Positions 8,269 to 31,626 of a stretch of DNA of 34,953 bases are shown piece by piece. The stretch is taken from IMG/VR virus record IMGVR_UViG_3300026518_000033, positions 1-34,953 of that record; one strand, written 5' to 3'. Origin of the DNA: a virus. The notes beneath the pieces were generated by a model, which did no database searches, was not told the origin of the DNA, and saw nothing but the letters and a program-made list of their open reading frames with translations. A program made the position numbers and the translations under genes. How positions within the stretch are numbered: position 1 is the stretch's first letter; each line of letters starts with the position of its first letter.

Positions 8269-9159
8269 TCATTCCTTGTGTTGTATCCAACCGGATTCCC
8301 AAATTTCATAATAATTATACCCCGCGTCCAAAAACGTATTCTTCTTTGTTACAGTATTCTCGTATAGTTGTCCATAGGTGTTTTGGGTTGATGGGTTAAT
8401 ATCCTCCGGATTATATATTTTTGGATTCCCATGCCAATAATCCCCATGAAACTCATATACAGTATTGGTCTCTGGATCATATCCATCAACCACATATCGT
8501 CTATTGGGGATCAGTCCACCAACCTCCCTATGTGATGGATCATCTGGCAAACCTAATGAATCCAACCATTGATCTGATAAAAACGAAATACGTTTTCCGC
8601 ATCTCGGACAACCATCTCCATTCAGATGATCATTAGGGCGTTGTAAAAAATCTCCATGGTCATCACAGGTTATCGGTAGTAACGAGGAGGATCGTGTATA
8701 TTCTACAAGATATCTATAACGATTTCCATGAATCTGGTTGGATTTTTTAACAAACTCATCATGAGTGATGGATACTCCACCGTTGCACTTGGAACATCCA
8801 TGCCCAGCTAGGTGATTATTTGGGGATTGCAGAAAATCTCCATGTATGTCACAGGTTATCGTAACAGGGGCGATAGCCGTTTTGTAGACGGTGTGATGGT
8901 ATGAATAACCTGATGAGTGAGCATGTTTAGCCTTTTTGGTAAACGATATGGTATCCGAAGGATAATTCTTCACACATCTAGGGCACCCATTACCGGTTAG
9001 ATGATTTGCTGGTCGTTGGGTAAATTCTCCATGAGTTGGACAAATGATGACAATCGGGGAGGTTGATGATTGGTAGTCAGATAATGAATAATCATACTTA
9101 TCCCCATGCGTTGAGATTGCCCTCGTGATAAATTCATCTGTTGTTAACTTTTTTGCCAT
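8269..9159 (-). CDS. Free-standing homing-type endonuclease with three zinc-ribbon repeats (paralogue)
   Basis: This encodes 296 residues. Three ~60-residue DUF723-like repeats, each with C-x-x-H and C-x-x-C (ICPTHGEF..GCPRC, TCDIHGDF..GCSKC, TCDDHGDF..GCPRC), precede the same Vsr/PD-(D/E)XK-type core (DGYDPETNTVYEFHGDYWHG) as the gene at 3936-5069. The repeat part is clearly diverged from that paralogue and one repeat shorter, while the nuclease core is almost the same at DNA level. The gene begins inside the end of the gp55-like gene (26-base overlap, different frame), so it sits between gp55-like and gp47-like. The start has only a weak Shine-Dalgarno. Confidence 0.8.
   Translation of the reverse strand: MAKKLTTDEFITRAISTHGDKYDYSLSDYQSSTSPIVIICPTHGEFTQRPANHLTGNGCPRCVKNYPSDTISFTKKAKHAHSSGYSYHHTVYKTAIAPVTITCDIHGDFLQSPNNHLAGHGCSKCNGGVSITHDEFVKKSNQIHGNRYRYLVEYTRSSSLLPITCDDHGDFLQRPNDHLNGDGCPRCGKRISFLSDQWLDSLGLPDDPSHREVGGLIPNRRYVVDGYDPETNTVYEFHGDYWHGNPKIYNPEDINPSTQNTYGQLYENTVTKKNTFLDAGYNYYEIWESGWIQHKE
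8338..8547. repeat. 210-bp near-identical patch, copy B
   Basis: This is the partner of 4020-4229, with 204 of 210 bases identical. It encodes the nuclease core of the second endonuclease. The mismatches fall in two clusters of three, around bases 60-70 and 165-180 of the patch. Confidence 0.95.
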
Positions 9160-9877
9160 TGACTTTCATAAACTCTTCGGTTTTCCTTGACAACCAATTT
9201 TTGTATTCCACATCATCCATCTTACTGATATCATCCTCTGGTATCACTTTAGGTTTTTTCCTACGACGACGAAGCATTGGATTTGATTCTATAGCTTTGG
9301 TTCCGTCAAGATCAATATCTAGTGAATTCCCCACATCTTCGTTTTGTCGCCCGTGTGAGGGTAACAGGTCTGTGTCAGACATCTCAATGATGGAGTCTCT
9401 GATCTTGCCCTGTTTCTTCTCATTACTGATATAGGTCAAGAAGATTCTCTTTGTAATTTGGGTATAATAGCTAAAGGGGTTTGGGTATTTTCCTGCTTTT
9501 TCACGATTAAATTTTAAAGCCACTCTGCATAGATTTAGGGTAGCATCAGACTGCATATCCTCGATCCACGTATATCCACGCCATCTCCAACTGGTGGCGT
9601 AATTATGGACCAATTCCATGATCATTTTTAATAGCGTAGGTGTTAGGCAATCTATGGCAGCGTTTTGGATAGCCGCATCAACGGCTTTTTCAAATTTGAT
9701 ATCATCATCTAATGAAACTGGTGTGGATGATGTGGAGTCTGCCATAGATTTGTTGCGTTCATCCGTCATCTGCTGCCGAATTTGATCAGCCCGAATTTTA
9801 TGGATTTCCTGACTTGCTACGATTTCTCGTAATAGGTTTGCGTTATTTACATAGTCTCTTGGTCGCTCAATTGCCAT
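9134..9877 (-). CDS. 55: Late-transcription sigma factor (T4 gp55-like)
   Basis: This encodes 247 residues. The centre (about residues 85-165) shows the phage late sigma pattern: helix YATSWRWRGYTWIEDMQSDA, then LNLCRVALKFNREKAGKYPNPFSYYTQITKRIFLTYI as in sigma region 2, then EKKQGKIRD. The FN-x-E..NP-F-x-Y-x-T-Q segment is characteristic of gp55. The N-terminal ~80 residues and the basic stretch RRRRKKPKV near 220 are extra relative to T4 gp55 (185 aa). By family it replaces sigma-70 on host RNA polymerase and directs it to TATAAATA-like late promoters. GAGG lies 9 bases before the ATG. It heads the leftward set, across the divergent gap from the baseplate genes. Confidence 0.9.
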   Translation of the reverse strand: MAIERPRDYVNNANLLREIVASQEIHKIRADQIRQQMTDERNKSMADSTSSTPVSLDDDIKFEKAVDAAIQNAAIDCLTPTLLKMIMELVHNYATSWRWRGYTWIEDMQSDATLNLCRVALKFNREKAGKYPNPFSYYTQITKRIFLTYISNEKKQGKIRDSIIEMSDTDLLPSHGRQNEDVGNSLDIDLDGTKAIESNPMLRRRRKKPKVIPEDDISKMDDVEYKNWLSRKTEEFMKVNGKKVNNR

Positions 9878-10828: not shown

Positions 10829-10836
10829 CCTAAATA
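10829..10836 (+). promoter_or_regulatory. Putative late promoter CCTAAATA
   Basis: The octamer ends 26 bases before the gp53-like ATG. A second partial copy, CCTAAATG, follows at 10843-10850, and a similar CTAAATGAG follows the promoter at 17820, so the two leaders share a sequence. Confidence 0.65.
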
Positions 10837-10861
10837 TTAATACCTAAATGAGAAATGCAAT

Positions 10862-16600: not shown

Positions 16601-17425
16601 TCCAATGTTTACGATATTGTGGCGAATGCTGATGCTGGGGCCAGTTTCAACATTGATAATTACAATGTGATGGTTGCCGCTGGTCTACCAACTCCTAATC
16701 CGACTGATATCTATATGGCCCATTTTTTGGGGGTTGGGCGATCCGGTGAGGGAGGAGCAATCGGGTTTATTGAGGCCAAGAATGCAACACCAGATCATTA
16801 TCCTGCATTGAATCCATCATTCCGTCGTGCTGCTGGTGCTAACAAGAATATCTTTTATAAACACGGGGATGTCAACACACCCAGAACCTATCTTGAGACA
16901 TATAATGTGATGGGTAAGAAGGTTCAGAAGCGCACTCCATATTTTGCAGGCGCATGTGGGGGGCAGGGTAATATACCACCACAGGTTGGAACACTGCCTG
17001 CTGGGTCAGGTGGTACAGGATTGGTCACTTGGGTTCCAGGTGCTAGAACTCCTGATTTCACCAATGTGGGGTCCATTCGGGCAATTGTCGAAACTGCTGC
17101 TAGTCAGGCCGGAATTAATCAATTAGCATTCAATAGTGGTTATCGCGATCCTGCTACGAATAGTAGGGTTGGTGGTGCCCGTAACTCACAACACCTATAT
17201 GGGAAAGCGTTGGATATACACATCGGTGATATGACCGTAGCACAGAAGCGATCATTTGCCGAACGGCTCATCCAAAATGGGGTTACCGGCTTTGGTATAG
17301 GGACAAATACCTATCATGTAGATAATAGGGCAGCACCACGGGTTACTTGGAAATATCGTGGCGGTAATGCCTATGTGGTTGATATATTACGTCAATATGG
17401 GTTCCGTGGAAGCGGTGTAGCATAA
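13640..17425 (+). CDS. 5: Baseplate central spike with GH24-like, lytic transglycosylase and M15 peptidase domains (gp5-like)
   Basis: This encodes 1261 residues. Domains in order: an OB-fold at about 30-165 (LTGFYIGQVMDDQDDQRMGRVWVYI..GDFIGVMF), and a VgrG/gp5-type beta-helix needle at about 290-550 with short repeats such as V-x-G-D-x-x-x-x-V-x-G. A GH24 lysozyme-like region follows at about 728-890 (YTVGYG, ITQSEAEGFLHTEL, SQYDALTSF, RRRTEV). A GH23-type transglycosylase follows at about 926-1090 (SIESGFNP with E950, then AAGLFQFT). Last is an M15-type DD-peptidase at about 1120-1255 (SGYRDP, SQHLYGKALD with H1185 and D1192, YHVD with H1226). It should pierce the outer membrane and open peptidoglycan. 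The GH24 part lacks a visible catalytic acid. T4 gp5 has only a lysozyme domain, placed before the needle. Confidence 0.9.
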   Translation: MVNTNTPRVDQGIGNNARTNWSGSNDTPTQQQQLTGFYIGQVMDDQDDQRMGRVWVYIQGVSNSRLDENSIPSYGGTAPDRMTTGGLDYDQRLRNGWLLVSPMTPFAGSDDYRNASRPDGSSSTNGDVNSYGMTAQPRNGDFIGVMFASGDPNSGYWMGMVPKQNRNGMVPGAPGTPAQDISSRDPNEIVHQVQPTAPLPILDRAPSDSDPTGSDPHGATDLARNIARAGVSGDIARGAGTSGVRRESPSYVTGIKTGGWTYDSEQHNRDTNGNQFSARISDLSAVNTTGHQFVMDDHPDHQLMRFRTSNGAQILLHDSGDNPFIYIQSGSGNSWVEISDSGDVSIYAKGGFHVHSEGDYNLTVDGDMNVEVKGKSTTRITGDHSVGVSGNSNTAVAGSLTVGVDGDYDIDIGTNSRTTYNGDLDLRVGNNWHNAIGGSWNTTTESACRFQSAGDMEIDAQSDLRMAVGGDLFQDAGGKIQTISGGDIGLQSGGAFGILSGDKIVINSGATTDIKSGDTIDIESGAAMSILGGGNIDVDGPKINLNGGGASGAATMDPVSVAVIGDFVTPDAANAPVLPDTHSTPSAPTQTQAIANEQPAMQDSVAPVVPQHQPWAGRSGIGNTVGTTGLVSHEPKCDGVMPRNGNTSCNRGDIFSNLRNGAGSLSALRPDHIVGGLTSFLGQLPTFGAASPYTGASQGEAPQHRSIRLAHWNETHLPDSLSPSTSIINYIKSQATMLLTPKLNAMRTAYTVGYGKVLQVGDIIGDNTVGNELMNSINSFSNDIQKSISITQSEAEGFLHTELNGVQTWIEVNFPDIEFTQSQYDALTSFVHHVTIEQLEVSLLGKELIASLQQGVFGKVQEIMYQFAHIGGAVDCSVLARRRTEVAGFSHIPDRDGVVAQNLTYSPSGQTVSIAGFDIPTEVFNAICNAQKNLAPQLPDGYLLTICSIESGFNPAAKASTSSAAGLFQFTIDTGSRYGLDADRGPTSNVYDIVANADAGASFNIDNYNVMVAAGLPTPNPTDIYMAHFLGVGRSGEGGAIGFIEAKNATPDHYPALNPSFRRAAGANKNIFYKHGDVNTPRTYLETYNVMGKKVQKRTPYFAGACGGQGNIPPQVGTLPAGSGGTGLVTWVPGARTPDFTNVGSIRAIVETAASQAGINQLAFNSGYRDPATNSRVGGARNSQHLYGKALDIHIGDMTVAQKRSFAERLIQNGVTGFGIGTNTYHVDNRAAPRVTWKYRGGNAYVVDILRQYGFRGSGVA

Positions 17426-17436
17426 AGGGGGCTGTC

Positions 17437-17802
17437 ATGGCACAAGCATTATATAGGGGCTACTCATCAGTGGCAAACAAACAGATATCCACAAGTCTAT
17501 TTGATCTTGAATTGGTGGTGCAGGATTTATTGAACCACTTTAACACCCGTATTGGTGAACGTGTGGGAAGACCGAACTATGGGTCCATCATCTGGGACTT
17601 ACTGTTTGACCCCAGTGATTCGCGGACTGAAGCGTTGGTTGTTCAGGATGCCCAGCGGATCATACAAGACGAACCACGGGTCGAACTATTGGAATTATTG
17701 CCGAATATATCGATTGATACTCATACTGTTGAGTTAAAGATTCGTCTCAAATTGGTTGAGCGAGGTGATGAGGGGTGGTTCACGGCAGTATTCAAACAAT
17801 GA
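17437..17802 (+). CDS. 25: Baseplate wedge protein (T4 gp25-like)
   Basis: This encodes 121 residues. After a short N-terminus the protein has DLELVVQDLLNHFNTRIGERVGRPNYGS and IWDLLFDP, the highly conserved gp25 motifs, with the R-P-x-Y-G-S turn and W-D-L-L-F-x-P. The C-terminal half is a two-stranded VELKIRLKLV..GWFTAVF sheet. Gp25 joins the (gp6)2-gp7 wedge core to the sheath-initiating ring, and it is also conserved in type VI secretion (TssE). Length is close to T4 gp25 (132). AAGGGGG precedes the ATG. It is 11 bases after the spike gene. Confidence 0.93.
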   Translation: MAQALYRGYSSVANKQISTSLFDLELVVQDLLNHFNTRIGERVGRPNYGSIIWDLLFDPSDSRTEALVVQDAQRIIQDEPRVELLELLPNISIDTHTVELKIRLKLVERGDEGWFTAVFKQ

Positions 17803-17819
17803 AGTGTGGATAATTGATA

Positions 17820-17827
17820 CCTAAATA
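17820..17827 (+). promoter_or_regulatory. Putative late promoter CCTAAATA
   Basis: The octamer ends 29 bases before the gp6-like ATG in the 53-base gap after gp25-like. CTAAATGAG follows at 17837-17845, as in the leader of gp53-like. Confidence 0.65.
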
Positions 17828-17855
17828 CTACTATAACTAAATGAGTGTATAGCCA

Positions 17856-20800
17856 ATGTCAGTAATTGCCCGCCAGAATACAATGTTTGTTGCCGAAGAT
17901 TGGACCAGAGTGTATGAAGCTCTTGAAAACGTAGATTTTCGTGCGTATGATTATGACAATCTAGTGCAGGCTATGTATCGTTATTTGCAGGCCAATTATG
18001 CAGAGCAATATAACGATTGGGTCTCATCTAGCGAATTTGTGACAAAAATCGAGATACTGGCATGGCTTTCTCAAAATATTGCATTCCGGGTAGATTTGAA
18101 TACCCGTGAGAATTTTTTAGCTACAGCAGAACGCCGTGATAGTTTAATCCGACTGGCCCAAAATATCGGGTATAAGATGAACCGTGTTCGGTCGGCCACC
18201 GGTATGCTGAAGCTGAAATCTATTCGTACTGATCAGGACATGACGGATTCTAGTGGTGTGAATATCAAAAATAAGACTATAGTGTGGAATGACCCCCGCG
18301 ATGCTGATTGGTTTGAACGATTTGTCTTGATCCTCAATAATGCTTTTATCAAACGCACTCAATTCGGGTCTCCCCTATCGAAGAATATGACTGCTGGATC
18401 ACGCATTGAACAGTATGTGTTCGATAGTGCTGCGCCGATTAGTGGTGCGTATAGATTCAATAAAACAGTCAATGGGGTAAACATTCCGTTTGATATGTAT
18501 AATGGGAAGCTAGATGATGTCAATGGGATCATCAATGAAATTCCACCCAACCCTGCCAACGCATTTAACATCTTTTACCTACTGGACGGACAGGGATTCA
18601 ACAGTCCTAGAAGCGGGTTCTTTCTACCGTTTGTGCAAGGTAACCTGAGCTTCCAAGATGAGTCCTTTACCAACCCAGAGGTCTTACGGACTGTTGATTT
18701 GACTGCTACAAATATCAATAATGATGATTTCTTCATACAACAGTTGGATGCAGTTGGTGGGGTTGTGGAAGATTGGACGCAAGTTGATACCACGTTCGGT
18801 GAAGGTGTTAGCTTCAACACCCTTTCTGGCAAACTGAAGAATATTTACGAGGTTGATACCTTACTGAATGATGCAGTTCGTGTTAAATTTGGAGACGGGA
18901 CCTTCGGGCGTATCCCATCGGGCCGCTTCAGATTTTGGTATCGTACTGCTAACCCAACACCAACACTAATTGATCCATCAGCGATTCAAAACCAAACATT
19001 GACAATTCCATACGTTAGTGGTGATCAGTTATATCACCTGACTATGACATACTCATTGGAGGAAACGGTATCCAACGGGGCGATAACCGAGTCCAATTTT
19101 GATATCCGCACCCGCGCTGGTAAGGTTTTCTATACTCAGAACCGTATGATTACTGCACAGGACTACAATAATTTTTATCTAAAAGACAATTCTATCCAGA
19201 AGGTCAAGACCGTAAATCGTAGTTTTGTTGGACAATCTCGGTATTCCAGATTGACTGACACTACTGGGTTGTATCAGAATATCAAACATGTGGCCGAGGA
19301 TGGCCGATTGTATCAGGATGACACTAAATCAGTGTCTGACTATCGAGTAGACACCTATTCGGTGGATAAGCTCATTGCAAAAGTGATTCGTCCGTTGATC
19401 AGGCAGGCCGATAAAAACGCCCTATATTTTAACCAATATCCAGAGATTGCACTAACAGGTAATTATAAATGGACCCAAACCTCAGAAGTGGCAGGTCAAT
19501 CTAGGGGTAATATTACTGCTGGCGGTGTTGCACAGGTGGCTGGGAGCACCGCTACTAATGACTTAAAATATGTCACCGCCGATAGTGTTATACGGTTTGA
19601 TACCCCGACTGGGGAAACCATTACGGTTGATCGGGTCATTGAAACAGGTAATGCCCCAAACGGAATTATACTCAGAGGGACCACGACGTCTGCGCGGGTC
19701 ATCAATAGCGTATTTCCTGCAATGAGGAATAGCTTTACGGACCCCGAATCGATTGATCTAAAAAACCGACTGGCCAGTCATGTTGATTTCGGTATTGGGT
19801 GGAATCAATCTACCCAATCATGGGTATTCATTGATGCTCCAAATCTTGACAAGACCTCTACATTTAGTATTGCCACGCAAGGTGACACCAGCGGAAGTGG
19901 CAAAGATGCAGCATGGATGATACTGGTGGAATTCCTACCTAATGTTTCAACCGACACGTGGCGAATTTCTGATCGGGGCATGAGTCTGTTCTTTGAATCT
20001 GCCAGAGAAGTAGACTTCGTGTTTGCTAATTCGGAATCTATCATCGATCCAGAATCGGGCAAATCGGTTAGGGATAGCATTATCCTGTTGCCGTCTAATG
20101 AATCCCGTAACAGTTTATTCCGAAGAGGTCTATCTGATCTGGGTGCTGGTTCATGTAATATGGACGCATATTCGTTCATCGCAGATGGTAGTAACGATTT
20201 TGTCACCCCACAGGTCCCGTTAGACGCTGCTACAACGGTGGTGTTGCTCAACGGGGTGTATCAGGTAATTAACGTGGACTACACCATAGTTCCAGCGATT
20301 TCCGGCTACTCGGTGCACTTCACTAATGCTCCTGCCGTTGGGGACACCGTATTGATATACTATCAAAGCCAATTCGTCAATGGTAGTCAATCTGTGAAAT
20401 ACATGATCGCGGATGGGGTGTCTCTGGAATATGATCTTGGGGTCCAGAGAGTGAATGCGGTTAATGTTGTTGCGTTTCTGGATGGTATACAACAAGCCTC
20501 CAATATTGATTTCGGGGTGGGTGATATTAATGGTAGCAGCACCATTATCTTTAACCAACTCATCCCCGCTGGTGTGGCAATAACTGTATATGTGATCCAT
20601 GACATTGATAACAATGTGATCTTGAAATCTAATTTTGTTGGAGACTCTTCTACTCAATTGTACACAGTTCCTTCCATTAATCAGACCAATGATACGGTCT
20701 TGGTGGCACTGGACGGGGTAGTCTCTTCATCTATAAATTATGCTATCAGTAGTGACGCCACCAATACCCGTATCACTTTTAATACTGCCCCACCAACGGA

Positions 20801-22241
20801 TGTGCATATCAGAATAATCACGGTAGTGAATCAATCCCAGACCCAGTCAAACCAATATCAATGGGTTGGTGATGATAGTACCAATTTGTTTGTGATGAAT
20901 AATAACCATAATGTCCCAAGTAGTGGTGCTGGATTGATGGTGACGATTGATGGGGTTCTACAGGATGGTCCGTGGTCACCAACCCCACAGTGGACTATAA
21001 CCGGCAACAATAGTATTATCTTTGCCACCCCTCCCGTCGCTGGGGAACAGATTAACGCATTTTATATAACCGGAACCTCCGGTATCGTGTGTATAACCTC
21101 CCCAACTGATCTGATTGCGGCCAGCCAGTCTGCACAATCAACTGCGCCACCACCAATTGATATAAAATCCGGTCTGATGCACTTCTTTGGTCAAAAGGTT
21201 GAGTTTACCCCTAGTGGGGTAATTCGGCACGTTGATGGGTATGTCAATAAGAATGGCCTCATGGTCAACCCTGTTGATGCAAACCGCGATGGCACGTTTG
21301 ACTCACCATTCATTTTCCGAAATCTGGTCATACAGGATGGTATCACCGATCTGGTCCTATGGGAGAAGGTTCAAGAATTTGGGTTTAATGTATGGAGTCC
21401 GATTAGTAAACGCACCACCCCTCGTGGAACGTATGGAATTTCCTCAGTTGTGGGAAATCCTAGTGCTGGGGACAGTTATGACCCCAATATTACTGCTAGT
21501 GGTTCAATACATTATGATGTGACTAGTTCTAAATGGTTGGTGGCTGACGCTGTTACATCAAGTTGGATACTGGCACCAGATCAAACAAAATATCGTGCAT
21601 TAATTGGTAGAGATGACCTATCGTTCATGTGGACTCATTACGCACCAGAAGCAAATCGTATTGATCCATCAAAGTCCAATATTATGAACGTTTATTTGTT
21701 GACCACGGGGTATAATACGGCGTATCGAAATTGGTTGACGCGCAATGGAAATAGTGCAGACGAACCAATAGCTGAAACATCAGAACAGTTGCGCATTCAA
21801 TATGTCAGCTATAATGATTTCAAACCCATCAGTGATGCGATTATATATTACCCCAGTAGGTATAAACCCCTGTTTGGTAAACAGGCCGTTGCAGAGTTAC
21901 AAGCCACATTTAAAATCATCCAGACCGCAGGGTCAACGCTATCAGAATCTGATCTTAAACTCAAAGTGTTATCTGCGATTGACACATATTTCAGCGTGGA
22001 TCGGTGGGAATTCGGCGAAAAATTCTATTTCACCGAATTGGTGGCATTCGTGCATGCACGGGTGGCACCTGATTTGCAATCGATGGTTATTGTTCCCAAA
22101 ACCACTAATCAGGCGTTTGGTAGATTATTTCAGGTTCGTGCCGAACCCGATGAGTTGTTTATATCCGCTGCTAGTCCAGAAGATATCCAAGTGGTTAAAT
22201 TTTTTACGGATGCAGAACTGCGTGTGGGGACATTAGTTTAA
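17856..22241 (+). CDS. 6: Baseplate wedge protein (T4 gp6/gpJ-like), enlarged by beta-module repeats
   Basis: This encodes 1461 residues, more than twice T4 gp6 (660). The N-terminus (WTRVYEALENVDFRAYDYDN, then EFVTKIEILAWLSQNIAFRVDLNTRENFL, AERRDSLIRLAQNIGY) and a central RAGKVFYTQNRMITAQDYNNFYL segment are typical of gp6/gpJ wedge proteins. So is the C-terminus (AIDTYFSVDRWEFGEKFYFTE, LQSMVIVPK, FGRLFQVRAEPDELF). Four tandem beta-rich modules are inserted at about residues 767-1075. Gp6 dimers make the ring that drives baseplate expansion. The Shine-Dalgarno is weak (TGAG), which is odd for such a protein, but the start is the only plausible one downstream of the late promoter. Confidence 0.85.
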   Translation: MSVIARQNTMFVAEDWTRVYEALENVDFRAYDYDNLVQAMYRYLQANYAEQYNDWVSSSEFVTKIEILAWLSQNIAFRVDLNTRENFLATAERRDSLIRLAQNIGYKMNRVRSATGMLKLKSIRTDQDMTDSSGVNIKNKTIVWNDPRDADWFERFVLILNNAFIKRTQFGSPLSKNMTAGSRIEQYVFDSAAPISGAYRFNKTVNGVNIPFDMYNGKLDDVNGIINEIPPNPANAFNIFYLLDGQGFNSPRSGFFLPFVQGNLSFQDESFTNPEVLRTVDLTATNINNDDFFIQQLDAVGGVVEDWTQVDTTFGEGVSFNTLSGKLKNIYEVDTLLNDAVRVKFGDGTFGRIPSGRFRFWYRTANPTPTLIDPSAIQNQTLTIPYVSGDQLYHLTMTYSLEETVSNGAITESNFDIRTRAGKVFYTQNRMITAQDYNNFYLKDNSIQKVKTVNRSFVGQSRYSRLTDTTGLYQNIKHVAEDGRLYQDDTKSVSDYRVDTYSVDKLIAKVIRPLIRQADKNALYFNQYPEIALTGNYKWTQTSEVAGQSRGNITAGGVAQVAGSTATNDLKYVTADSVIRFDTPTGETITVDRVIETGNAPNGIILRGTTTSARVINSVFPAMRNSFTDPESIDLKNRLASHVDFGIGWNQSTQSWVFIDAPNLDKTSTFSIATQGDTSGSGKDAAWMILVEFLPNVSTDTWRISDRGMSLFFESAREVDFVFANSESIIDPESGKSVRDSIILLPSNESRNSLFRRGLSDLGAGSCNMDAYSFIADGSNDFVTPQVPLDAATTVVLLNGVYQVINVDYTIVPAISGYSVHFTNAPAVGDTVLIYYQSQFVNGSQSVKYMIADGVSLEYDLGVQRVNAVNVVAFLDGIQQASNIDFGVGDINGSSTIIFNQLIPAGVAITVYVIHDIDNNVILKSNFVGDSSTQLYTVPSINQTNDTVLVALDGVVSSSINYAISSDATNTRITFNTAPPTDVHIRIITVVNQSQTQSNQYQWVGDDSTNLFVMNNNHNVPSSGAGLMVTIDGVLQDGPWSPTPQWTITGNNSIIFATPPVAGEQINAFYITGTSGIVCITSPTDLIAASQSAQSTAPPPIDIKSGLMHFFGQKVEFTPSGVIRHVDGYVNKNGLMVNPVDANRDGTFDSPFIFRNLVIQDGITDLVLWEKVQEFGFNVWSPISKRTTPRGTYGISSVVGNPSAGDSYDPNITASGSIHYDVTSSKWLVADAVTSSWILAPDQTKYRALIGRDDLSFMWTHYAPEANRIDPSKSNIMNVYLLTTGYNTAYRNWLTRNGNSADEPIAETSEQLRIQYVSYNDFKPISDAIIYYPSRYKPLFGKQAVAELQATFKIIQTAGSTLSESDLKLKVLSAIDTYFSVDRWEFGEKFYFTELVAFVHARVAPDLQSMVIVPKTTNQAFGRLFQVRAEPDELFISAASPEDIQVVKFFTDAELRVGTLV
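20155..21080 (+). repeat. Four tandem beta-rich protein modules in gp6-like gene
   Basis: Four ~75-residue units follow the pattern F-x-(A/G)-D-(G/S)-x-x-x-x-(F/Y)....V-x-V-x-L-(D/N)-G-V-x-Q....D-Y-x-(I/V)....I-x-F-x-x-(A/P)-P-x-x-(G/D)-x-x-(I/V)-x-(I/V). Approximate starts are at 20155, 20378, 20608 and 20836. They are diverged at DNA level, so they are old duplications. Related units occur in the gp7-like and fibre genes. Confidence 0.8.
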
Positions 22242-22263
22242 CTCCTACACTGGAATTACAAAC

Positions 22264-22303
22264 TGATCTCACCTAAATATTAATAATAATTTAGGTGAGA
22301 TCA
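22264..22303 (+). promoter_or_regulatory. Perfect 15-bp inverted repeat masking the gp7-like Shine-Dalgarno
   Basis: Arms 22264-22278 and 22289-22303 are perfectly complementary around a 10-base loop. The 3' arm contains AGGTGA, 7 bases before the ATG at 22306. The 5' arm contains TCACCT, the same bases as the 16S rRNA anti-Shine-Dalgarno region, and most of the late promoter CCTAAATA. In an RNA reading through from gp6-like, the ribosome site would be fully paired. An RNA initiated from the promoter would start in the loop and leave the site free. It has no U-tract, so it does not look like a terminator. Confidence 0.7.
22272..22279 (+). promoter_or_regulatory. Putative late promoter CCTAAATA inside the hairpin left arm
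   Basis: The octamer ends 27 bases before the ATG of the 3106-residue gene. By analogy with T4 late promoters transcription would start near 22285, inside the loop of the inverted repeat. Confidence 0.65.
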
Positions 22304-22305
22304 AT

Positions 22306-25300
22306 ATGCCCCAATCAAGACGTGCTTATAATAGACTTCCTTCATATCTTCAGACCGATCAGAACAATAGGGAAACCTATATCACCGATGATGTCATGTT
22401 TGAACCTGAGCGGGCTGGGTTTGTCAGTGGGTATATCGGAAACACTGATAAGCTAACCGCTACTGATATGGAGCGCCATCCCAAGATATACGAAACATCG
22501 GCGGAACGGCAGAAATACCAATTATCATTGGGTGCGGTAATGGTTGATCCCGATACTGAGTTACGGTCTGGCGGTGCGTTTTACGATGACATCGTTGGGC
22601 AATTAGCAGCCAACGGTGGTATTGTTGATAACCCAAATAGACTTTTTGAGACTCCATTCTATACATGGACTCCGCCTATTGATTATGACAAGCATATAAA
22701 TTTCTCCCGTTATCATTGGGTCGGGGCTGGTAATGCTGAGGTAAATGGCGAATACATTGCCAAGGAACCACAGGGATCACAGACCAAATTATGGGAAGTG
22801 GTTAATGGGGCATTAATAGTCCATGATGTGTTAATCTCACAGTCAGCGCCCATAGCCCCCAGTGGTGGCCAGTTGTGGGAAAATTCATCCGACACGAATC
22901 GCAAGATATCAAAATGGGATGGCAGTAATTGGTCTATTGTGACATATTATCCTGTAGATGATGTCCCTGTGAGTTTGACTAATTACTCCAATGGGGATTA
23001 TCTCTATATTGCACGGACTGGCCCTGCATATAATAGACCACTGGTATGGAAATACTCCACTGCTGCAGGTCGTTGGGTATCACAGTCGGTGGTGGTTGGT
23101 CCAACACCGGATGTTCCGTCTGAAGGAATGGTGTGGGAAAATTCATCCGTATCTCCTGATCGCCCATTACTGGTGTATCAGAATGGGGGGTTTGTGCCAT
23201 TGTTGTGGAGTTCCATGAATGGGCCATCAGGAACCCCCTCAGTGGTGACCATAGGGTATGATGCACGATCTATCGCTGATATCCCAGATGGGTGGTCTAC
23301 GGGCAACTGGTGGCGGCATTACGACGATCTATCTCCTGTTGATCGATCATCGTTGTTGGTGGGCGATCAAGCTATTCGCCCTATTGTGGAATTCTGGGCA
23401 GGTATCAAAGGAGTCTCGGGGGATACCAAGATTGCACGTAATGGATTTCCTAAATTTGACACATATGGGTATAATTTAACATCATCACTGATCGAACCCA
23501 TCGGAACCACAGGGACTACCGTTTTTCAATATCAGGTCGGGAGCGGTAGTGATGATAAAGTGTTGGGGTTCCCAGTAGTGTTCAATGCATCTGGGGAGAT
23601 TCAATTCGAAGTGACCCTTGAAACGGATACCATCGCTGGTGTAACTGGTTATCGGTATTTTAAAGACGTCTTTACTGGTTTAACCCATGGTATATGGCAG
23701 AAGGCCAAAGGACTTACCAGCCAGCAGATAGATTCAAATGGATTGGCAGAAGTTCCTATTAATATTACTGCCAATGCCGACCACGCCACCCTAACGGTAG
23801 CTTCGAGAAGCCGCATACTACCTCATATGTCGGGCGTGATAAATTCACAGATGACATCAGCAGGTAATCCAGTGGGGCTGAATAATTATCGGTGGTCTGA
23901 TAAAGACCAGTCGGTCGGTGGGACCATCATTGATTGTGAAAAGTCCCTACTTAGAATACTTGCAACACTCCAACGTGACGACTTAGACATACCAACGGTT
24001 ATTCGGTCGATGGCCAGAGATTATACCCGTGTGATGTTTAAGTTCACCAATAGGATGAATCAATTGTGGGATGATCTGGTGATATCATCCCCGTCTGATA
24101 CTCTATTGGTTACCCCTGTGGAAGCCGTTGATATCATCCTCACCGAATTGTTTGTTGGTCGTAACGAGGATTTCCCTTACTATTATTCCGATATGGGGAA
24201 TTATGTGGAGACCCAGATATCAGGTGGTGTGGCAGTAAACATCTCTACTACCCCAAAACCTATTTTTATCCCACCTAGTCCATCAAGAATTGGCGCAAGT
24301 CCAGTTTATAAACCGGAGACCTTCATTGATCCAGATGGAATAACGAAGCTGCGCGGTCATGATGGGTCCACACTTGCTGCATATGGGGATGATCGGGATT
24401 CTATATGGCTCGAACTGCATACCCGTATCTATAATAAGGTGCCTGATTATTATAAAGTGGAAACCAGCGGGTTTAGTGCATCACATACTGGTTCTAACTT
24501 CCAATTATCCAAACTGTATGGAAACTCCACCCCACCCACCGCTGCTACTGTGGCCGATGTGGTGGTCGACCACACGGTAATAACTCCTCCTGCAGGCACG
24601 GTGCTGTTAGACACATCTAGGGCCGTGTTGGCCTATTATGATGGGACCAATTATAAGACCTCTCCGATATTGGTAGATGATCGATTCAAAAATACCACCG
24701 ATGGGGAATATTATTTTTATAATGGATTTTCTGTTGTTAAAGTGAATCGGTTTGAACGGCCATATAGTTTCGATTATACCACCGAAAACTTTAATCACAT
24801 CATGCGTAGAGAATTTGAGCGATGGGCCGTCACCCAAAATGCTGATTTTTTAACCAATTCGTCCTATGACGTGAATGATCCGTTCACTTGGAATTATCGA
24901 TCCGCAGGAATTGAAGGTCATTATATGGGAATTTACCATCGCGTATATCGGACCATTCGGCCACATTCCCATCCGTGGGAAATTGTTGGTTATGCTGCAC
25001 AGCCCGACTGGTGGACTACCCAATATCCTCCAACCAGTGTGAGTGGTGACGGGACCCCTAGATACTCAAATACCCATACTATGTGGAGTGACCTACAGGC
25101 TGGTAAATATGCAGTAGGTAAACAATCTGGCCAATATCGGATGATGGCACCTATTCCGGTGGATGCAGTTGGTAACTTATTGGACCCAATTGGTGCTGGA
25201 ATTGTAAATGAAGATCACTTAGTTCCTAATCGCCGTGATGACTCTTGGAGTTATGCAGACGGGGCATCCGTAGAGCAACAATTTAGAGATAGCACCGATT

Positions 25301-28300
25301 ATCCATTTGCGGTGGCATTAGCTGGGTATTTGATGAAACCTGCGCAATTCGTTGATACTGTATGGTCAGAATTATATATCGACATTGGTGAGCAACCCAC
25401 AGATGCCCTGTATAACGCCCCACATGTCGTTCATAGGGATACCCTCACAAGACCGTCATTATCGGCACTGACGGTCCATTTAGAGCCTGTGGGTGGGGTA
25501 ACTACCCAACGGGTCGGCCTTAATGCATGGATATCCGAATATACCCGCTCGTTGGGTAATGATGTATCTACTAATTTTGGTAAAACGATGAGGGGGACTG
25601 AGGTTTCACTGGGGTGGAAATGTGCGGGATACGTGAATAGCAAACGCACGGACATTCGGACTCTCAGCGGGATCAAAATTCCCTTTGAGGATGTTCATAC
25701 TTTATTGCACCGATCCCGTCCCACTAAAGAGTTTTTTGGTTCTGGTGTATTGGTGGCCCGCGATGGGACAGGATATAGGGTATTTGGATTTGACCTATTT
25801 GACCCATACTTTGAAATTGATAAACCTGTGGTGCCCATCGCGGGTGGTCAGGTAGAATTGAAAGAGCCTATTACTGCTACAGCAGATCAGCACAGTTTTG
25901 TGGTCACTCAGTTTAAAATCCCCCATAATGTCCAATCCAACGATACTGCCAGTGTGTCCATACTGATCAACGGATTGAAGATTAATCCCCAGCACATAAC
26001 AATCACCTCATCAACTACATTTGATTTGGAATCTATAGTTGCGGTTAATGCAGGAGATATTATCACCCCAGTAGTATTGACTACCCAATCGTCCCCATCA
26101 ACGCGGGTCAAGCAATTTCGAGTAAACGGGGTGAGCTTCCCGTATGTTGATGCTGGCCAAGGGGTAGTTCAGAGAATCGAGTATGGTCGATATTATGAAA
26201 CATCAACCGATGTCATCAACTTTATGCTGGCCTACGGACGACACCTGACGTCTCAGGGGTGGGTGTTTGATACTCTAGTATCCGCTGGGTCCGTAAGGGA
26301 CTGGCTGTATGGTGCTAAAATATTTGCCACTTGGGTATTGGAGAATACGAAAAATCCAAATCAGGGTGATTTCTACTTTAGTCCTTTTGAGACCAAGGCT
26401 AAATTTACTTCACAGTTTGGGCAAGTTCTGAACGTGGAGGCACTTCAGAATGGTGCATATGGGATTGTGGATAGTGGTGCAAACCCAATTGATCCAGAGT
26501 CAGTATTTACTTCACGAATTGACAATGAATTGACAATGACCACCGATGGGAGTGTTGGTGTATACGGGGTGCGGTTGTTGGTGGTGACCGACCAACATGT
26601 AGTATTTTTGTCCAACGTGACGAAATTTAATGATCTCATGTATGACCCATTGGTGGCACTATTCCATGACACTCTTCGGGTTGACACATACCGAAGTCTG
26701 AATTGGGATGGTCGATTGGTGGCTGATGGGTTCGTTATCAATAACGGCGGGGTGTTGCCGAATTTTGAAAAACAGGCTAAAGACTTTACTCGGTATTATG
26801 ATACCTCCAATCCGGTGGATGACCCCCTTCATCGGGATCAAGCCCGTGAACTGTATGGGTGGTATCCGAATGATGAATGGGTAGCCCCTGATGGCCATAA
26901 AGTCCCCATGATGGGTGCCATTGGCGCTGATGAACGATCAGGTTTTAATTATCATCGGGGAATGCTAAACAGTAAAGGCACAATTCGTCCCTTAATCGCG
27001 TTCTCACAAGGAACCCGCACGGGCACCGATAATATCTTCATCACTGAGGATTGGGCATGGCGGTGGTGTGAATATGGTGATACCCGTCATAGCATCGTCC
27101 AATTCAAGGTGAATAAACACGACTTTTTGAATAAGCGACAGATTATAGAATTCAATGCGGTTGATAACCCAAATGATGACGTATTGCAGATTCCCGTATT
27201 TGATCGAAACTCACCCAATGATCCTAGGTGGGTGATCCCCCCAATTTCAACGGATAGTGGAAATAACCAATACCCGTATTTGCTACCAATCACTAATGGT
27301 GCCCTTGGTCCCAACTTGGGTATACTATCGATTAAAATGATTGATCTGGATACGGGGTTTGTCGTATCTAGGGCGTTTATCAACGATCCCACCAGTGGTG
27401 ATCAATTTATAAATCCGATAGCCACTGCTACCATTGATCATGCTACCCCGTCTGATCCAGCGCGATACACTGATGGGGTTGGTGCAGGTTATTCGGATGG
27501 CAATCGTTGGGGTGCTGAGCAGGTTGGCCAGCGGTGGTGGGATCAGACCCGTAATAATCCGATGGACGGTAGGGCACATCTTCCCGATTATCACGCTGTT
27601 GCAACCAGTTGGGGACAACAGGCGTATTATCCCTCAACCGTTGTGCGGGTTAACGATCTAGTAACTGTGACAACTATGGACACCAATGGACTACCAGTTC
27701 CACATGGGTTGACTACTGGTGATGTTGTTGAAATTAGCGGTGCGAACCAACCAGAGTATAATTCGGAAGTCGCTGTCACTGTTACAAGCGGTAGTGAATT
27801 TACCTACACTATATCCTCTACCCCAACAACTCCAGCCACGGGCGGGGTGATTGTCAAAACAGGTTTCATAGACGTATTCGAATGGGTTCGGTCATTGTTG
27901 ACTCCGACAAAGCTATTGAACTGTAATATTCCAACCACTATAGGTGGCGTAACCCCTACGGGGGTAAATCCGTCCACCAATGGTCCCACTCCCGATGGGG
28001 TGCCCATTAACGGGGTTGACACCAGCTATGTGACCGTCATGGAACCAAACGCCAATGGCGTCAATGTTCCCGTGTATTACTATTGGGTGAAAAATAAATC
28101 AACCCCTCCGGCCAAAACCGTTGATAACCCAACCCCACTAACGGTGATAGAGCTGGCCAATATGATGGAGGCCCCCGCTAACAGCAATACCCCATGGGCG
28201 GCGATTGTTGATGATAATCATTTAATCCTCTACGCTGGAAATGTGGTTATTGAGGATAACTATGCTATTGAGATAGAATATGATCAACGGGTTTTGGACA

Positions 28301-31300
28301 ATCATGCTGAATGGTTATTAGTTGCTGAAGGAGATAAATTCAATCCATTACCGACCCCTATAGGGGATAAGATAACCGACTCACTGGCAGGTGTTGATGC
28401 ATATGGTAGTGTGGTACCATCGCCATTACTAGCCATTACTGAAAAATATGGCACTGATACATTTCCCCCACAAACCTTGTTCTCAGATAGACTATCGGCC
28501 CTACAGGTGTTTGTGGATGCGGTTAATCAGTTGACCGCTGCTCAGAGTCTCAATACGATCCTTGACCTAACTACGGTATTCCCATTGTCTGATGAAGGTA
28601 ATTATTGGAAACGAGCATCATATCTGGACGTAGCTTACGTGGGTGTAACAGTCACCGATACAGTGGCTAATAACACTGTTAGGGACAATCGATTGGCTGC
28701 TAAGCATTATGTGAATGGTGATTTAGTCAAAGTGCTACAGTCCTCAAACATCGATCTATGGTCGGGTGGGGTCACGGCCACTACATATGCCCTCGTCAAC
28801 GGGACATTTATGGAGGTAGGTGTTGATAATGCCACGTTAGCTCTTACGCTGAACGCTACACATGATGGATCCACTATTCGTAATGTCATTACAAAGGTAT
28901 ACTCGGTGTTGTCCAAGGCTGATCAGAACACTGTAGCATTTGCTGTATTGTACGAGATGTTGAGGCAACACCCAAACGCTGACTGGTTTATTAAAACCTC
29001 GTATATGGATTTGCAGGTATTTGACACAGTGACCAAATCACCGTTTGTAAGACCGAACGAAACCGATGCCATAGTGGCAAATGCGCTAGATACTAAACCA
29101 TACCGGACGAAGCTGCGTAGTCAAATATATACCCATTCTATTGACTCAGTGGATGCTGCAAATGTGCAGATAATTGATACGGTTGATCAGAAGGTGACCA
29201 TATTGCTGGATCGATTGGCGTGTAGTGTGGATGATGATGGGGGTTGGGATACAGAACCGTGGGATGAGCTAGAGGATAGGTGGGATTTCCCATTCTGGGA
29301 TTGGGCCAACCAAGGGTTGGATGAATGGATTTCGTTGGGAGTCCAAACAGGTGGAACCGCAAATACCCGATATACATTTATTAGCCGGTTTGATCCTACC
29401 AGATATTCCCATCGTATCATTATGAGGGACAATGGGACCCCCGTGAATATGACAGACATTGGCCATGTCGTTCGTTTTATCAAATTGCACACCTCGGTGA
29501 TTGCTGAGTTTAATGCCCCGCTTGGGAGCAATATCACAATCGAGCTGGAACAGACTAGAGCATTTTATATTGGCGGGGTGCCAACACTGGGTGATACTCT
29601 TGCTAATTCTTCGTTCACTGTGACTCCAAGTAGCTTTAAGCATCATGTGGTTCGGCAGATGGAAATGGGCCTATATGCACCATTCGCATCTATGGACGAG
29701 TGTTATACAACTCCTGCTACTAACCCACAGGAGCGGGTGTCCGATGATATTATTGACTCAGTGTCAATTAAGGTTTCGACCGAATGGACCCCTTCATATG
29801 CGGGATGGGATACTACTCCGTGGGATGCAACAGCTTGGGATATGCCACCAATCAACGATGGTCCCCGCAGCTTCTACATACTGGCCGGTAATGAGCCTGT
29901 CATCCCTGCTGGACCAGCCGTGTTCATGACTAGTGAACCCGTAGTGGTGAGCAATACTCATTACGTCACTAGACAGAATTCATTACCAATCTCTCGCGTT
30001 GATCTAAATGGGACTCAACTGGTTGAGGGGGTAGATTATGTCCAGTCCTCGGTTACTCCACGGGTTGTTGAGTTTCTCACCCATCCCGATTCAGTATATC
30101 ACGCCGATGGTGCCACAACCACATTTAGTCTGGCTAATCCATCAGTGAATAAAGTGATGCTGAATAATGTGTTGATGACTAGTGGGGTCCATTATACCAT
30201 TAGTGGTAATACACTGACGTGGTTACAATTTCCACCAACCGTTTCCTCCTTAAAATTTACCCCCCTAGGGGTGTATTATATGGGTGACAATGCTACAGTG
30301 TCATTTAACAGTAATCATCCTACTAATAGTGTATCTGCGAATAATGCTTTCGTGTGGAAGAACGCCACATTACAGATACCGTCAACCGATTATACGGCCA
30401 ATGCAACGAACAGTAACATCGATTTCGTAGCACCGCCGTTTAACACCGATGGGATTAGTATTTTTTCCTTGGGTAATGGATTTGGAAATTCATCATCGCT
30501 GTTTAATGCATATAACCTAGTAGGGGATGGTGTGACTACAAGCTACCCCGTTGGGGATAATGCCAACAATGTGACAGCCTTTGTATTTGTTAATGGGATA
30601 TATCAGGTATTGGGGGCTGACTATACCATTCCTGTGCAGGGGACTATACAATTTACTACGCCTCCCCCAAATGGTGATCTAATCCATGTGAGGGTGCTAC
30701 CACCAACCTCGTATACCGCCTATAACATTGATCATGTCCAGTTTAACGCATCAGGTGGGCCGGTCGATACTATTGTAGGTATTGCAGATGCCAGTCCCGA
30801 TAACATGATGTTATTCCGTGGTGGTAATATACAAAATGGATATTCTGCCACGCAGGTCGATTATACTATCACGGCTGGTAATCCTAATACGATTAACTGG
30901 TCGGTGCCACCGACGGCTGGGACCCCTATTAGTGTTCGTATTATACGGAGTGTCACTGTTGGACAAACCACTATCATCCATGTGTCCCCAAGTGCAGGGG
31001 GTGTGGTGACTGTGAGTTACAATCCAATATTGACGGCTGGTGACACCGTAGACTTTTATCATAATCAATTTCCTATTGGTAGTCTGCACAATGTGAACGT
31101 GTCATCTGTTCCTACCACTTATGACATAATCAATGGTGTGTTGATCATGGATAATCCAGTATTGAATGGGTTTATTAATGTCAATTATCTCGGAACCCGT
31201 TTTGGGCCTAATCCAACTGATCTATTAGTGTGTATGCCACATATCGTTGATCGTGCTCTCGCTGATCATCTACTATACGATGGAGTATTGGGCTATGAGA

Positions 31301-31626
31301 GTAACAGACGCATTGGGGTTAGAGTATTGGATACCACCAATAGTCTGATATATAGCTGGGATGGCACAGGATGGGTGGATACCGGTGTGGTATTGGCTGC
31401 GTTGGATCAAATAATGGTATTAGAGGATTCACAGATTCTGGAGTATTCTGGGACTATATTTAATGTAGTTTACTCTGTAGGAACCAGTTTCACAAATCCG
31501 CCATTGCTACAATATCCAAATAGTGGTATTGGTGTAGTATCTGGGGGGTATGCGTTGGGGCAATTACCAAATGCTGCTACGGACTTCCCTGATGCCTATC
31601 AGATATGGCAACATCTGTGTGGATGA
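22306..31626 (+). CDS. Giant baseplate wedge protein (gp7-like by position)
   Basis: This encodes 3106 residues, about three times T4 gp7 (1032). The assignment rests on its place directly after gp6-like, and I see no decisive gp7 motif. The N-terminus (YNRLPSYLQTDQNNRETY) is followed by two W-E-N-S-S boxes near residues 182 and 268 (P-x-x-P-S-x-G-x-x-W-E-N-S). A long region of structural-protein character follows. A beta-module lies at about 1185-1265, a V-T-V-T-T..H-G-L-T-T-G-D-V-V-E-I-S-G module at about 1783-1853, and two Trp-Asp-rich motifs (GWDTEPWD near 2311 and GWDTTPWD near 2500). At least four beta-modules lie at about 2595-2884. Initiation appears controlled by the hairpin upstream. 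It could instead be a composite wedge-fibre protein. Confidence 0.6.
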   Translation: MPQSRRAYNRLPSYLQTDQNNRETYITDDVMFEPERAGFVSGYIGNTDKLTATDMERHPKIYETSAERQKYQLSLGAVMVDPDTELRSGGAFYDDIVGQLAANGGIVDNPNRLFETPFYTWTPPIDYDKHINFSRYHWVGAGNAEVNGEYIAKEPQGSQTKLWEVVNGALIVHDVLISQSAPIAPSGGQLWENSSDTNRKISKWDGSNWSIVTYYPVDDVPVSLTNYSNGDYLYIARTGPAYNRPLVWKYSTAAGRWVSQSVVVGPTPDVPSEGMVWENSSVSPDRPLLVYQNGGFVPLLWSSMNGPSGTPSVVTIGYDARSIADIPDGWSTGNWWRHYDDLSPVDRSSLLVGDQAIRPIVEFWAGIKGVSGDTKIARNGFPKFDTYGYNLTSSLIEPIGTTGTTVFQYQVGSGSDDKVLGFPVVFNASGEIQFEVTLETDTIAGVTGYRYFKDVFTGLTHGIWQKAKGLTSQQIDSNGLAEVPINITANADHATLTVASRSRILPHMSGVINSQMTSAGNPVGLNNYRWSDKDQSVGGTIIDCEKSLLRILATLQRDDLDIPTVIRSMARDYTRVMFKFTNRMNQLWDDLVISSPSDTLLVTPVEAVDIILTELFVGRNEDFPYYYSDMGNYVETQISGGVAVNISTTPKPIFIPPSPSRIGASPVYKPETFIDPDGITKLRGHDGSTLAAYGDDRDSIWLELHTRIYNKVPDYYKVETSGFSASHTGSNFQLSKLYGNSTPPTAATVADVVVDHTVITPPAGTVLLDTSRAVLAYYDGTNYKTSPILVDDRFKNTTDGEYYFYNGFSVVKVNRFERPYSFDYTTENFNHIMRREFERWAVTQNADFLTNSSYDVNDPFTWNYRSAGIEGHYMGIYHRVYRTIRPHSHPWEIVGYAAQPDWWTTQYPPTSVSGDGTPRYSNTHTMWSDLQAGKYAVGKQSGQYRMMAPIPVDAVGNLLDPIGAGIVNEDHLVPNRRDDSWSYADGASVEQQFRDSTDYPFAVALAGYLMKPAQFVDTVWSELYIDIGEQPTDALYNAPHVVHRDTLTRPSLSALTVHLEPVGGVTTQRVGLNAWISEYTRSLGNDVSTNFGKTMRGTEVSLGWKCAGYVNSKRTDIRTLSGIKIPFEDVHTLLHRSRPTKEFFGSGVLVARDGTGYRVFGFDLFDPYFEIDKPVVPIAGGQVELKEPITATADQHSFVVTQFKIPHNVQSNDTASVSILINGLKINPQHITITSSTTFDLESIVAVNAGDIITPVVLTTQSSPSTRVKQFRVNGVSFPYVDAGQGVVQRIEYGRYYETSTDVINFMLAYGRHLTSQGWVFDTLVSAGSVRDWLYGAKIFATWVLENTKNPNQGDFYFSPFETKAKFTSQFGQVLNVEALQNGAYGIVDSGANPIDPESVFTSRIDNELTMTTDGSVGVYGVRLLVVTDQHVVFLSNVTKFNDLMYDPLVALFHDTLRVDTYRSLNWDGRLVADGFVINNGGVLPNFEKQAKDFTRYYDTSNPVDDPLHRDQARELYGWYPNDEWVAPDGHKVPMMGAIGADERSGFNYHRGMLNSKGTIRPLIAFSQGTRTGTDNIFITEDWAWRWCEYGDTRHSIVQFKVNKHDFLNKRQIIEFNAVDNPNDDVLQIPVFDRNSPNDPRWVIPPISTDSGNNQYPYLLPITNGALGPNLGILSIKMIDLDTGFVVSRAFINDPTSGDQFINPIATATIDHATPSDPARYTDGVGAGYSDGNRWGAEQVGQRWWDQTRNNPMDGRAHLPDYHAVATSWGQQAYYPSTVVRVNDLVTVTTMDTNGLPVPHGLTTGDVVEISGANQPEYNSEVAVTVTSGSEFTYTISSTPTTPATGGVIVKTGFIDVFEWVRSLLTPTKLLNCNIPTTIGGVTPTGVNPSTNGPTPDGVPINGVDTSYVTVMEPNANGVNVPVYYYWVKNKSTPPAKTVDNPTPLTVIELANMMEAPANSNTPWAAIVDDNHLILYAGNVVIEDNYAIEIEYDQRVLDNHAEWLLVAEGDKFNPLPTPIGDKITDSLAGVDAYGSVVPSPLLAITEKYGTDTFPPQTLFSDRLSALQVFVDAVNQLTAAQSLNTILDLTTVFPLSDEGNYWKRASYLDVAYVGVTVTDTVANNTVRDNRLAAKHYVNGDLVKVLQSSNIDLWSGGVTATTYALVNGTFMEVGVDNATLALTLNATHDGSTIRNVITKVYSVLSKADQNTVAFAVLYEMLRQHPNADWFIKTSYMDLQVFDTVTKSPFVRPNETDAIVANALDTKPYRTKLRSQIYTHSIDSVDAANVQIIDTVDQKVTILLDRLACSVDDDGGWDTEPWDELEDRWDFPFWDWANQGLDEWISLGVQTGGTANTRYTFISRFDPTRYSHRIIMRDNGTPVNMTDIGHVVRFIKLHTSVIAEFNAPLGSNITIELEQTRAFYIGGVPTLGDTLANSSFTVTPSSFKHHVVRQMEMGLYAPFASMDECYTTPATNPQERVSDDIIDSVSIKVSTEWTPSYAGWDTTPWDATAWDMPPINDGPRSFYILAGNEPVIPAGPAVFMTSEPVVVSNTHYVTRQNSLPISRVDLNGTQLVEGVDYVQSSVTPRVVEFLTHPDSVYHADGATTTFSLANPSVNKVMLNNVLMTSGVHYTISGNTLTWLQFPPTVSSLKFTPLGVYYMGDNATVSFNSNHPTNSVSANNAFVWKNATLQIPSTDYTANATNSNIDFVAPPFNTDGISIFSLGNGFGNSSSLFNAYNLVGDGVTTSYPVGDNANNVTAFVFVNGIYQVLGADYTIPVQGTIQFTTPPPNGDLIHVRVLPPTSYTAYNIDHVQFNASGGPVDTIVGIADASPDNMMLFRGGNIQNGYSATQVDYTITAGNPNTINWSVPPTAGTPISVRIIRSVTVGQTTIIHVSPSAGGVVTVSYNPILTAGDTVDFYHNQFPIGSLHNVNVSSVPTTYDIINGVLIMDNPVLNGFINVNYLGTRFGPNPTDLLVCMPHIVDRALADHLLYDGVLGYESNRRIGVRVLDTTNSLIYSWDGTGWVDTGVVLAALDQIMVLEDSQILEYSGTIFNVVYSVGTSFTNPPLLQYPNSGIGVVSGGYALGQLPNAATDFPDAYQIWQHLCG
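30090..30955 (+). repeat. Beta-rich protein modules in the gp7-like gene
   Basis: At least four consecutive units occur, starting near 30090, 30272, 30510 and 30721. They share G-D-(G/N)-x-(T/V)-x-x-(F/Y), (V/M)-x-V-N-x-x-(Y/L)-x-x, (A/V)-D-Y-T-I and I-x-F-x-x-P-P-x-x-G elements with those in gp6-like. A further, more diverged unit lies at about 25860-26100. Confidence 0.7.

Follow-up and report, generated by a model that had tools for sequence, protein, structure and literature searches.

In the 34,953 bases of IMG/VR record IMGVR_UViG_3300026518_000033, which make up the entire record and were analysed whole (the window), a gp6-like baseplate wedge gene is followed on the same strand, after a 64-nucleotide (nt) gap, by a gp7-like gene for a giant protein. 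This gap holds a perfect hairpin covering both a late-promoter octamer and the Shine-Dalgarno (SD) sequence of the second gene, and the question that the locus raises is what such a hairpin does for the translation of the gp7-like gene. It is most likely an example of the design known from phage T4, a late promoter inside an SD-hairpin, and we hold it probable that it serves as a read-through filter making translation of the gp7-like gene depend on its own late promoter. The parts on which this answer rests are the following.

22264 to 22278, + strand: left (5') arm of the hairpin, TGATCTCACCTAAAT, an anti-Shine-Dalgarno sequence
22272 to 22279, + strand: late-promoter octamer CCTAAATA, with a putative transcription start near 22285
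22279 to 22288, + strand: 10-base loop
22289 to 22303, + strand: right (3') arm, ATTTAGGTGAGATCA
22293 to 22298, + strand: SD sequence AGGTGA, within the right arm and 7 nt before the ATG at 22306
17856 to 22241, + strand: gp6-like baseplate wedge gene, 1461 amino acids (PHROG 10646, baseplate wedge subunit, E 1.6e-267)
22306 to 31626, + strand: gp7-like giant virion structural or baseplate gene, 3106 amino acids (PHROG 10938, and position after gp6)

The hairpin proved to be as described in the initial annotation, with Watson-Crick pairs at 15 of 15 stem positions (-20.9 kcal/mol for the local segment), a well-spaced SD in the 3' arm and seven of the eight octamer bases in the 5' arm, the octamer ending one base beyond it. 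The span then given to the element, 22241 to 22310, does include the hairpin, but extends beyond it to the last base of the gp6 stop codon and into unpaired flank. Although no longer inverted repeat with arms at most 60 nt apart turned up in the window, the length of this stem alone is only moderately rare, since 2 of 60 dinucleotide shuffles of the 35 kb held a perfect stem of at least 15 bp (loop 3-40) somewhere. The 57-nt hairpin segment was 8 standard deviations more stable than its own shuffles (z -8), none of 1000 being equally stable. More telling than stem length was the test in which the real SD and start region was kept and only the upstream sequence shuffled, as equal occlusion then arose in 1 of 200 and 0 of 60 shuffles in two runs. 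A search of 22100-22500 against Rfam gave nothing at the gathering score, the two microRNA models that appeared being far below threshold.

The energies computed for long and short RNAs agree in silico with the earlier claim that the SD is hidden on read-through mRNA and free on the transcript from the promoter. Opening the region from -16 to +3, with 20-150 nt of downstream context, cost 19.3-20.5 kcal/mol on the read-through RNA and 1.7-3.5 kcal/mol on RNAs starting at 22280, 22282, 22285 or 22287. Any start from 22280 onward excludes the left arm and, because the octamer covers the 3' end of that arm, a transcript from CCTAAATA would lack it. On the long RNA the stem was computed to be 94% paired on average with up to 900 nt of context, and the probability of an unpaired SD was at most 0.001; on the short RNA the SD sometimes paired weakly with the coding region in the ensemble and was cheap to open. 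Expressed as dd, occlusion at the gp7-like leader (19.2) was comparable in size to the values given by the same method for T4 e (13.8), 49 (14.1) and I-TevII (14.0). Thus, as modelled, the leader has two marks of the T4 type, namely an SD and start sequestered on the long transcript, and a promoter so placed that its transcript, from the putative start, would leave out the 5' arm.

The sequence of events that we propose involves two further features.

17820 to 17827, + strand: late-promoter-like octamer CCTAAATA of the gp6-like gene, T4-type by sequence only and a possible source of the read-through mRNA
9134 to 9877, - strand: gp55-like late sigma factor (PHROG 234 and 12791), the expected reader of CCTAAATA promoters

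A polymerase starting from the gp6 promoter at 17820 would pass the gp6 stop and transcribe both arms, and the stem formed on this read-through mRNA would bury AGGTGA so that no ribosome could load at the gp7-like gene. A polymerase with the phage late sigma factor would start near 22285 at the second CCTAAATA and make an mRNA without the left arm, in which the SD would be free. Translation of the giant protein would in this way be tied to the late promoter of its own gene. The stem begins 22 nt past the gp6 stop, which probably puts it out of reach of the terminating gp6 ribosome, and we think that this ribosome probably does not melt it. Translational coupling of the T4 type, with overlapping or near-abutting gene ends, was not found at this junction, where 64 nt separate the two genes.

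The same architecture has been described for T4 e, soc, 49, I-TevI and others (PMC3014915 section 29; PMC2988022 section 12), and for e the leader structure reportedly brings an approximately 100-fold loss of translation (PMC3014915 section 29). In T4 e, soc, 49, I-TevI, I-TevII, I-TevIII and segB, and in Aeh1 mobE, the SD or start lies in a stem on long transcripts and the late promoter lies within the 5' arm or next to it, which lets late transcripts escape, as would be the case here. The present locus differs from the e group in two respects: the long transcripts of that group are early or middle ones, whereas here the upstream gene has a late-type promoter of its own; and the promoter here is CCTAAATA, whose CCT forms base pairs with AGG in the SD. 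According to section 12 of PMC2988022, the T4 genes with sequestered ribosome-binding sites are all late and lie on transcripts that also encode early or middle products. Timing, in which early or middle transcripts are kept untranslated until the late phase as in T4 e, 49 and I-TevI, is therefore the documented use of such hairpins (PMC3014915 section 29; PMC2988022 section 12), and it gains from the presence of a hairpin at the window's RuvC-like gene, which corresponds to T4 gene 49. We nevertheless consider it unlikely at gp7, since all five genes on the + strand between 10862 and 22241, the last of them gp6-like, encode baseplate or virion proteins, and CCTAAATA precedes both gp6 and the first of the five. 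Sigma-70-like sites in 17300-22700 were no more frequent than expected (12 found against 14.6), although the fragment may contain an earlier promoter of another type. Taken together, the upstream virion genes, the octamer of gp6 and the chance-level number of sigma-70-like sites point to a late-late setting, and use of the hairpin between gp6 and gp7 as a late-late variant of the T4 design is plausible.

The octamer itself behaves as a promoter motif would be expected to. CCTAAATA occurs five times in the window (1.45 expected), always on the + strand and just upstream of a + strand gene, and the wider form NNTAAATA is found upstream of genes more often in the forward than in the reversed orientation (7 against 0 in the window, 63 against 18 in the related record G003 and 57 against 24 in G004). 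Late promoters of the NATAAATA type have been reported in T4 and S-PM2 (PMC2984593), and for the jumbo phage CBB the sequence ATAAATA has been put forward (PMC5259590). Among the seven NNTAAATA leaders scored in the window, that of the gp7-like gene alone joined a dd of at least 10 with a positive shuffle test; the open reading frame at 862-1515 had 0 of 60 shuffles as high with a dd of 2.6. As a separate observation, the octamer is followed some nucleotides on by CTAAATGAG at 10829-10860 and 17820-17850, and by CAAATGA in the gp7 leaders of XaC1, BF and 121Q (L021-L023), a possible shared downstream element.

A second strong case in the window, already claimed in the initial annotation, was borne out at the RuvC-like gene.

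2048 to 2089, - strand: 13-bp inverted repeat over the ATG (2051) of the RuvC-like resolvase gene (PHROG 1770 / 159)

Its left arm carries CATAAATA (2088-2081, - strand) and its right arm the internal ATG, and for the gene read from this ATG the dd was 14.7, with none of 200 shuffles as high; the longer reading frame, whose start at 2081 overlaps the promoter, is probably not used. Four of six ruvC-like orthologues had an octamer that could be scored, with 0 (the window), 0 (G002), 1 (G004) and 16 (G009) of 200 shuffles as high, while G003 and G014 had no octamer at the required distance. Such stems thus occur more regularly at the ruvC-like gene, counterpart of the known member T4 gene 49, than at gp7. 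In G003 we also observed that TCTAAATA ends 5 nt before the ATG of the ruvC-like gene (L048 12488, + strand), within an ACCGGT..ACCGGT repeat, and the late transcript of this gene might be nearly leaderless.

A perfect inverted repeat between two genes might also be an intrinsic terminator or a stabiliser of the 3' end of the gp6 mRNA, and terminator-like hairpins do occur at this position in other phages: in XaC1, BF, 121Q and RaK2 the two genes stand about 80 nt apart, and a GC-rich hairpin in the space between them precedes NATAAATA, three of the four hairpins being terminators by our own rule. In the window, however, the stem is followed by ATATGCCCC, there is no T run on either strand, and the scan found no intrinsic terminator at the junction, which speaks against the termination that the initial annotation had itself set against its reading. 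Moreover, the stem lies over the SD and promoter and not ahead of them. We regard this role as very improbable indeed, even though the stem may stabilise cleaved gp6 mRNA. The least probable account that we considered makes the repeat a palindromic DNA operator, at which a bound regulator would shut off the late promoter in the way that I-TevI represses its own. The T4 autorepressor is a precedent (PMC2988022) and a perfect 15-bp inverted repeat over a promoter would suit an operator, but the right arm falls exactly over a well-spaced SD, which an operator would not need. Copies of the half-site elsewhere in the window are scattered and carry one mismatch (with up to one mismatch allowed, seven matches including both arms, against 2.97 expected). 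Exact copies of the stem were also sought in viral contigs as TCACCTAAATA..TTTAGGTGA; the three stretches recovered were rejected as unrelated, none having a long open reading frame beginning just past the stem, and two of them (L102, L103) apparently being one coding sequence that reads through the repeat.

We compared the gp6/gp7 junction with that of other phages. Residues 1-1333 of the gp7-like protein match PHROG 10938 (virion structural protein, E 7.5e-127), and a gp7-like gene after gp6 is the order common to T4, Atu_ph07, PA5oct and RaK2; a Pfam search with seven proteins of the window gave no match. Viral scans with gp6 and with the gp7 N-terminus yielded loci L001-L011 and L025-L037, respectively, and an alignment scan, of which the best 80 of 254 relatives were used, gave 78 loci; a profile scan of genome contigs with the gp7 alignment found no relative. 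The comparison covered 83 of 86 loci (L200, L248 and L019 were dropped, no gp7 start being available beside the match) and, after the loss of L196 (no start), the remainder formed 51 distinct leaders, which do not include that of the window. Three designs were seen: close or overlapping genes; a terminator-like hairpin plus promoter; and an own promoter with or without an SD-stem. The first is that of T4 and of most of the distant relatives, with gp7 overlapping the preceding gene or within 30 nt of it in 32 of the 51 leaders, 29 of these 32 being octamer-free. In the second, that of RaK2, 121Q, BF and XaC1, gp7 stands apart from gp6 under its own NATAAATA promoter, as here, but the GC-rich hairpin upstream of the promoter takes the place of the SD-stem, and the RaK2-like leaders were not occluded (58-86 of 100 shuffles as high). 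The third is that of the clade of the window (13 leaders, 44-58% identity), every one of which places an NNTAAATA no more than 100 nt from gp7; in a separate scoring set the octamer preceded gp7 in all 13 clade records, window included. Two further leaders (L195, L198) were ambiguous. A gp7 gene under its own late promoter is therefore a feature of the clade, and the SD-stem an addition to it.

These comparisons also bear on the suggestion, made in the initial annotation, that the stem sets the 2:1 ratio of gp6 to gp7 by denying gp7 the gp6 transcripts. T4 tails do hold 12 gp6 and 6 gp7 (PMC3004832 Table 1). However, T4 reaches this ratio from genes 6 and 7 that overlap by 4 nt (83060-83063), with no octamer within 100 nt upstream of gene 7, so that the ratio does not need a stem; gp7 overlaps or nearly abuts the preceding gene in most other leaders, as given above, and near relatives lack the stem. 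This role is thus very unlikely.

The claim that the architecture was new for baseplate genes did not hold either. T4 genes 25 and 26, both of the baseplate and with RNA structure at the ribosome site as here, are listed among the sequestered genes in PMC2988022 section 12, although in gene 25 the structure aids initiation by shortening the SD-AUG spacing (PMC3014915). Examination of 24 T4 starts (L105, T4 77000-117000) disclosed weaker occlusion in the late-promoter leaders of 53 (dd 7.5, 0 of 100 shuffles as high), 24 (8.7, 0), 51 (8.3, 2) and 26 (7.6, 3), which indicates that use in the baseplate is not special to this phage. Genes 53, 24 and 51 are absent from the gene lists in PMC3014915 section 29 and PMC2988022 section 12. 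A limited literature search found the T4 reviews and turned up no jumbo-phage or gp7 case.

A survey of genes preceded by the octamer, with gene calls and starts chosen mechanically, extended the analysis beyond gp7. The first set comprised 168 such genes from the window and 11 related records, 166 of them with a neighbour, and strong occlusion (dd of at least 10, no more than 3 of 60 shuffles as high) was present in 22 of the 168. It was commoner after a same-direction gene (19/105) than otherwise (3/61, p 0.011), also when the window was excluded (18/99 against 3/60, p 0.013), and commoner in octamer genes (22/166) than in octamer-free controls (9/188, p 0.004), which had no directional bias in this set (4/87 against 5/101). 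A replication with the thresholds fixed, on G014, PA5oct and parts of Atu_ph07 and RaK2, again favoured octamer genes after same-direction neighbours (13/194 against 0/77, p 0.012), so that the prediction of SD-stems being commoner in this position held in both sets. Perfect stems of at least 8 pairs were likewise above chance in the late genes (11, against a mean of 4.2 and a maximum of 7 in 20 rounds of permuted upstream sequences). When 10 of the 22 occluded genes were scanned, three matched PHROG families (tail-sheath stabiliser, terminase large subunit and portal protein); the genes before them, among seven upstream genes scanned, encode a tRNA-His guanylyltransferase, an unmatched protein and a peptidase/endolysin-like protein, so these leaders are not proven late-late cases. 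Two G004 genes (L066 7349, - strand; L075 11578, + strand) have strong SD-stems without TAAATA and, by eye, a sigma-70-like -35 element ahead of the left arm; the same filter may be used with non-late promoters.

Several results from the clade and the survey weigh against the proposed filter, or against its being tied to late promoters. The shuffle test (no more than 2 of 200 as high) was passed by only 4 of the 13 clade records, namely the window (1), G010 (1), G004 (2) and G015 (2), and their pairings have no common sequence by eye. That of G010 is weak and the left arm in G004 falls mostly between the octamer and the assumed start, so that these cases are weak or hinge on the start site chosen. 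This leaves G015 as the only clear second gp7 case, with a different and unrelated SD-stem (10 Watson-Crick pairs, CCTAAATA between the arms). In the nearest relatives, G008 and G009, CCTAAATA keeps its position but the stem is missing (20 and 111 of 200 shuffles as high), which indicates that the stem is lineage-specific and that the clade does not need it; no close homologue carries it. In the survey, the replication controls showed the same directional bias (16/357 against 1/167, p 0.012), so this bias is not peculiar to late promoters, and octamer genes no longer differed from controls (13/271 against 17/524, p 0.18). Strict stems of at least 8 pairs were as frequent in controls (10/200) as in late genes (11/168). 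Accordingly, the late-specific enrichment of SD-stems was dropped and perfect stems are not claimed as a mark of late genes. A balanced view is that SD-stems are found preferentially behind genes of the same direction, irrespective of the promoter, in line with what a read-through filter would predict.

Other gp7 leaders contained structures of a different kind. An apparent long-range pairing that occludes the SD, together with a competing hairpin, was noticed in G005 and G006; scored with 70 nt of upstream sequence it was not significant (56 and 28 of 200). The leaders of L028 and L037 (upstream of 6001 and 4081) and L089 (upstream of 5703, - strand) carry CCATTTGAACTTAT, which has two possible partners, the start region of gp7 and a near-copy of that region close by, an arrangement that looks like a switch between two hairpins.

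With regard to the T4-related giant phages as a whole, we put forward only as a tentative possibility that promoters have repeatedly come to lie in the left arms of SD-hairpins, as a general filter allowing own-promoter-only translation between neighbouring units, late-late pairs included. CCTAAATA would then act as a transcribed anti-Shine-Dalgarno sequence, and such hairpins as a substitute for terminators at operon boundaries, quickly gained and lost. If the read-through filter is true, the timing device of T4 would be extended to insulation between adjacent late virion genes, and gene order alone would be no guide to which genes of giant phages share a translated mRNA. A high opening cost on the long RNA joined with a low one on the short RNA would provide a computable signature for promoter-gated translation in unannotated phages.

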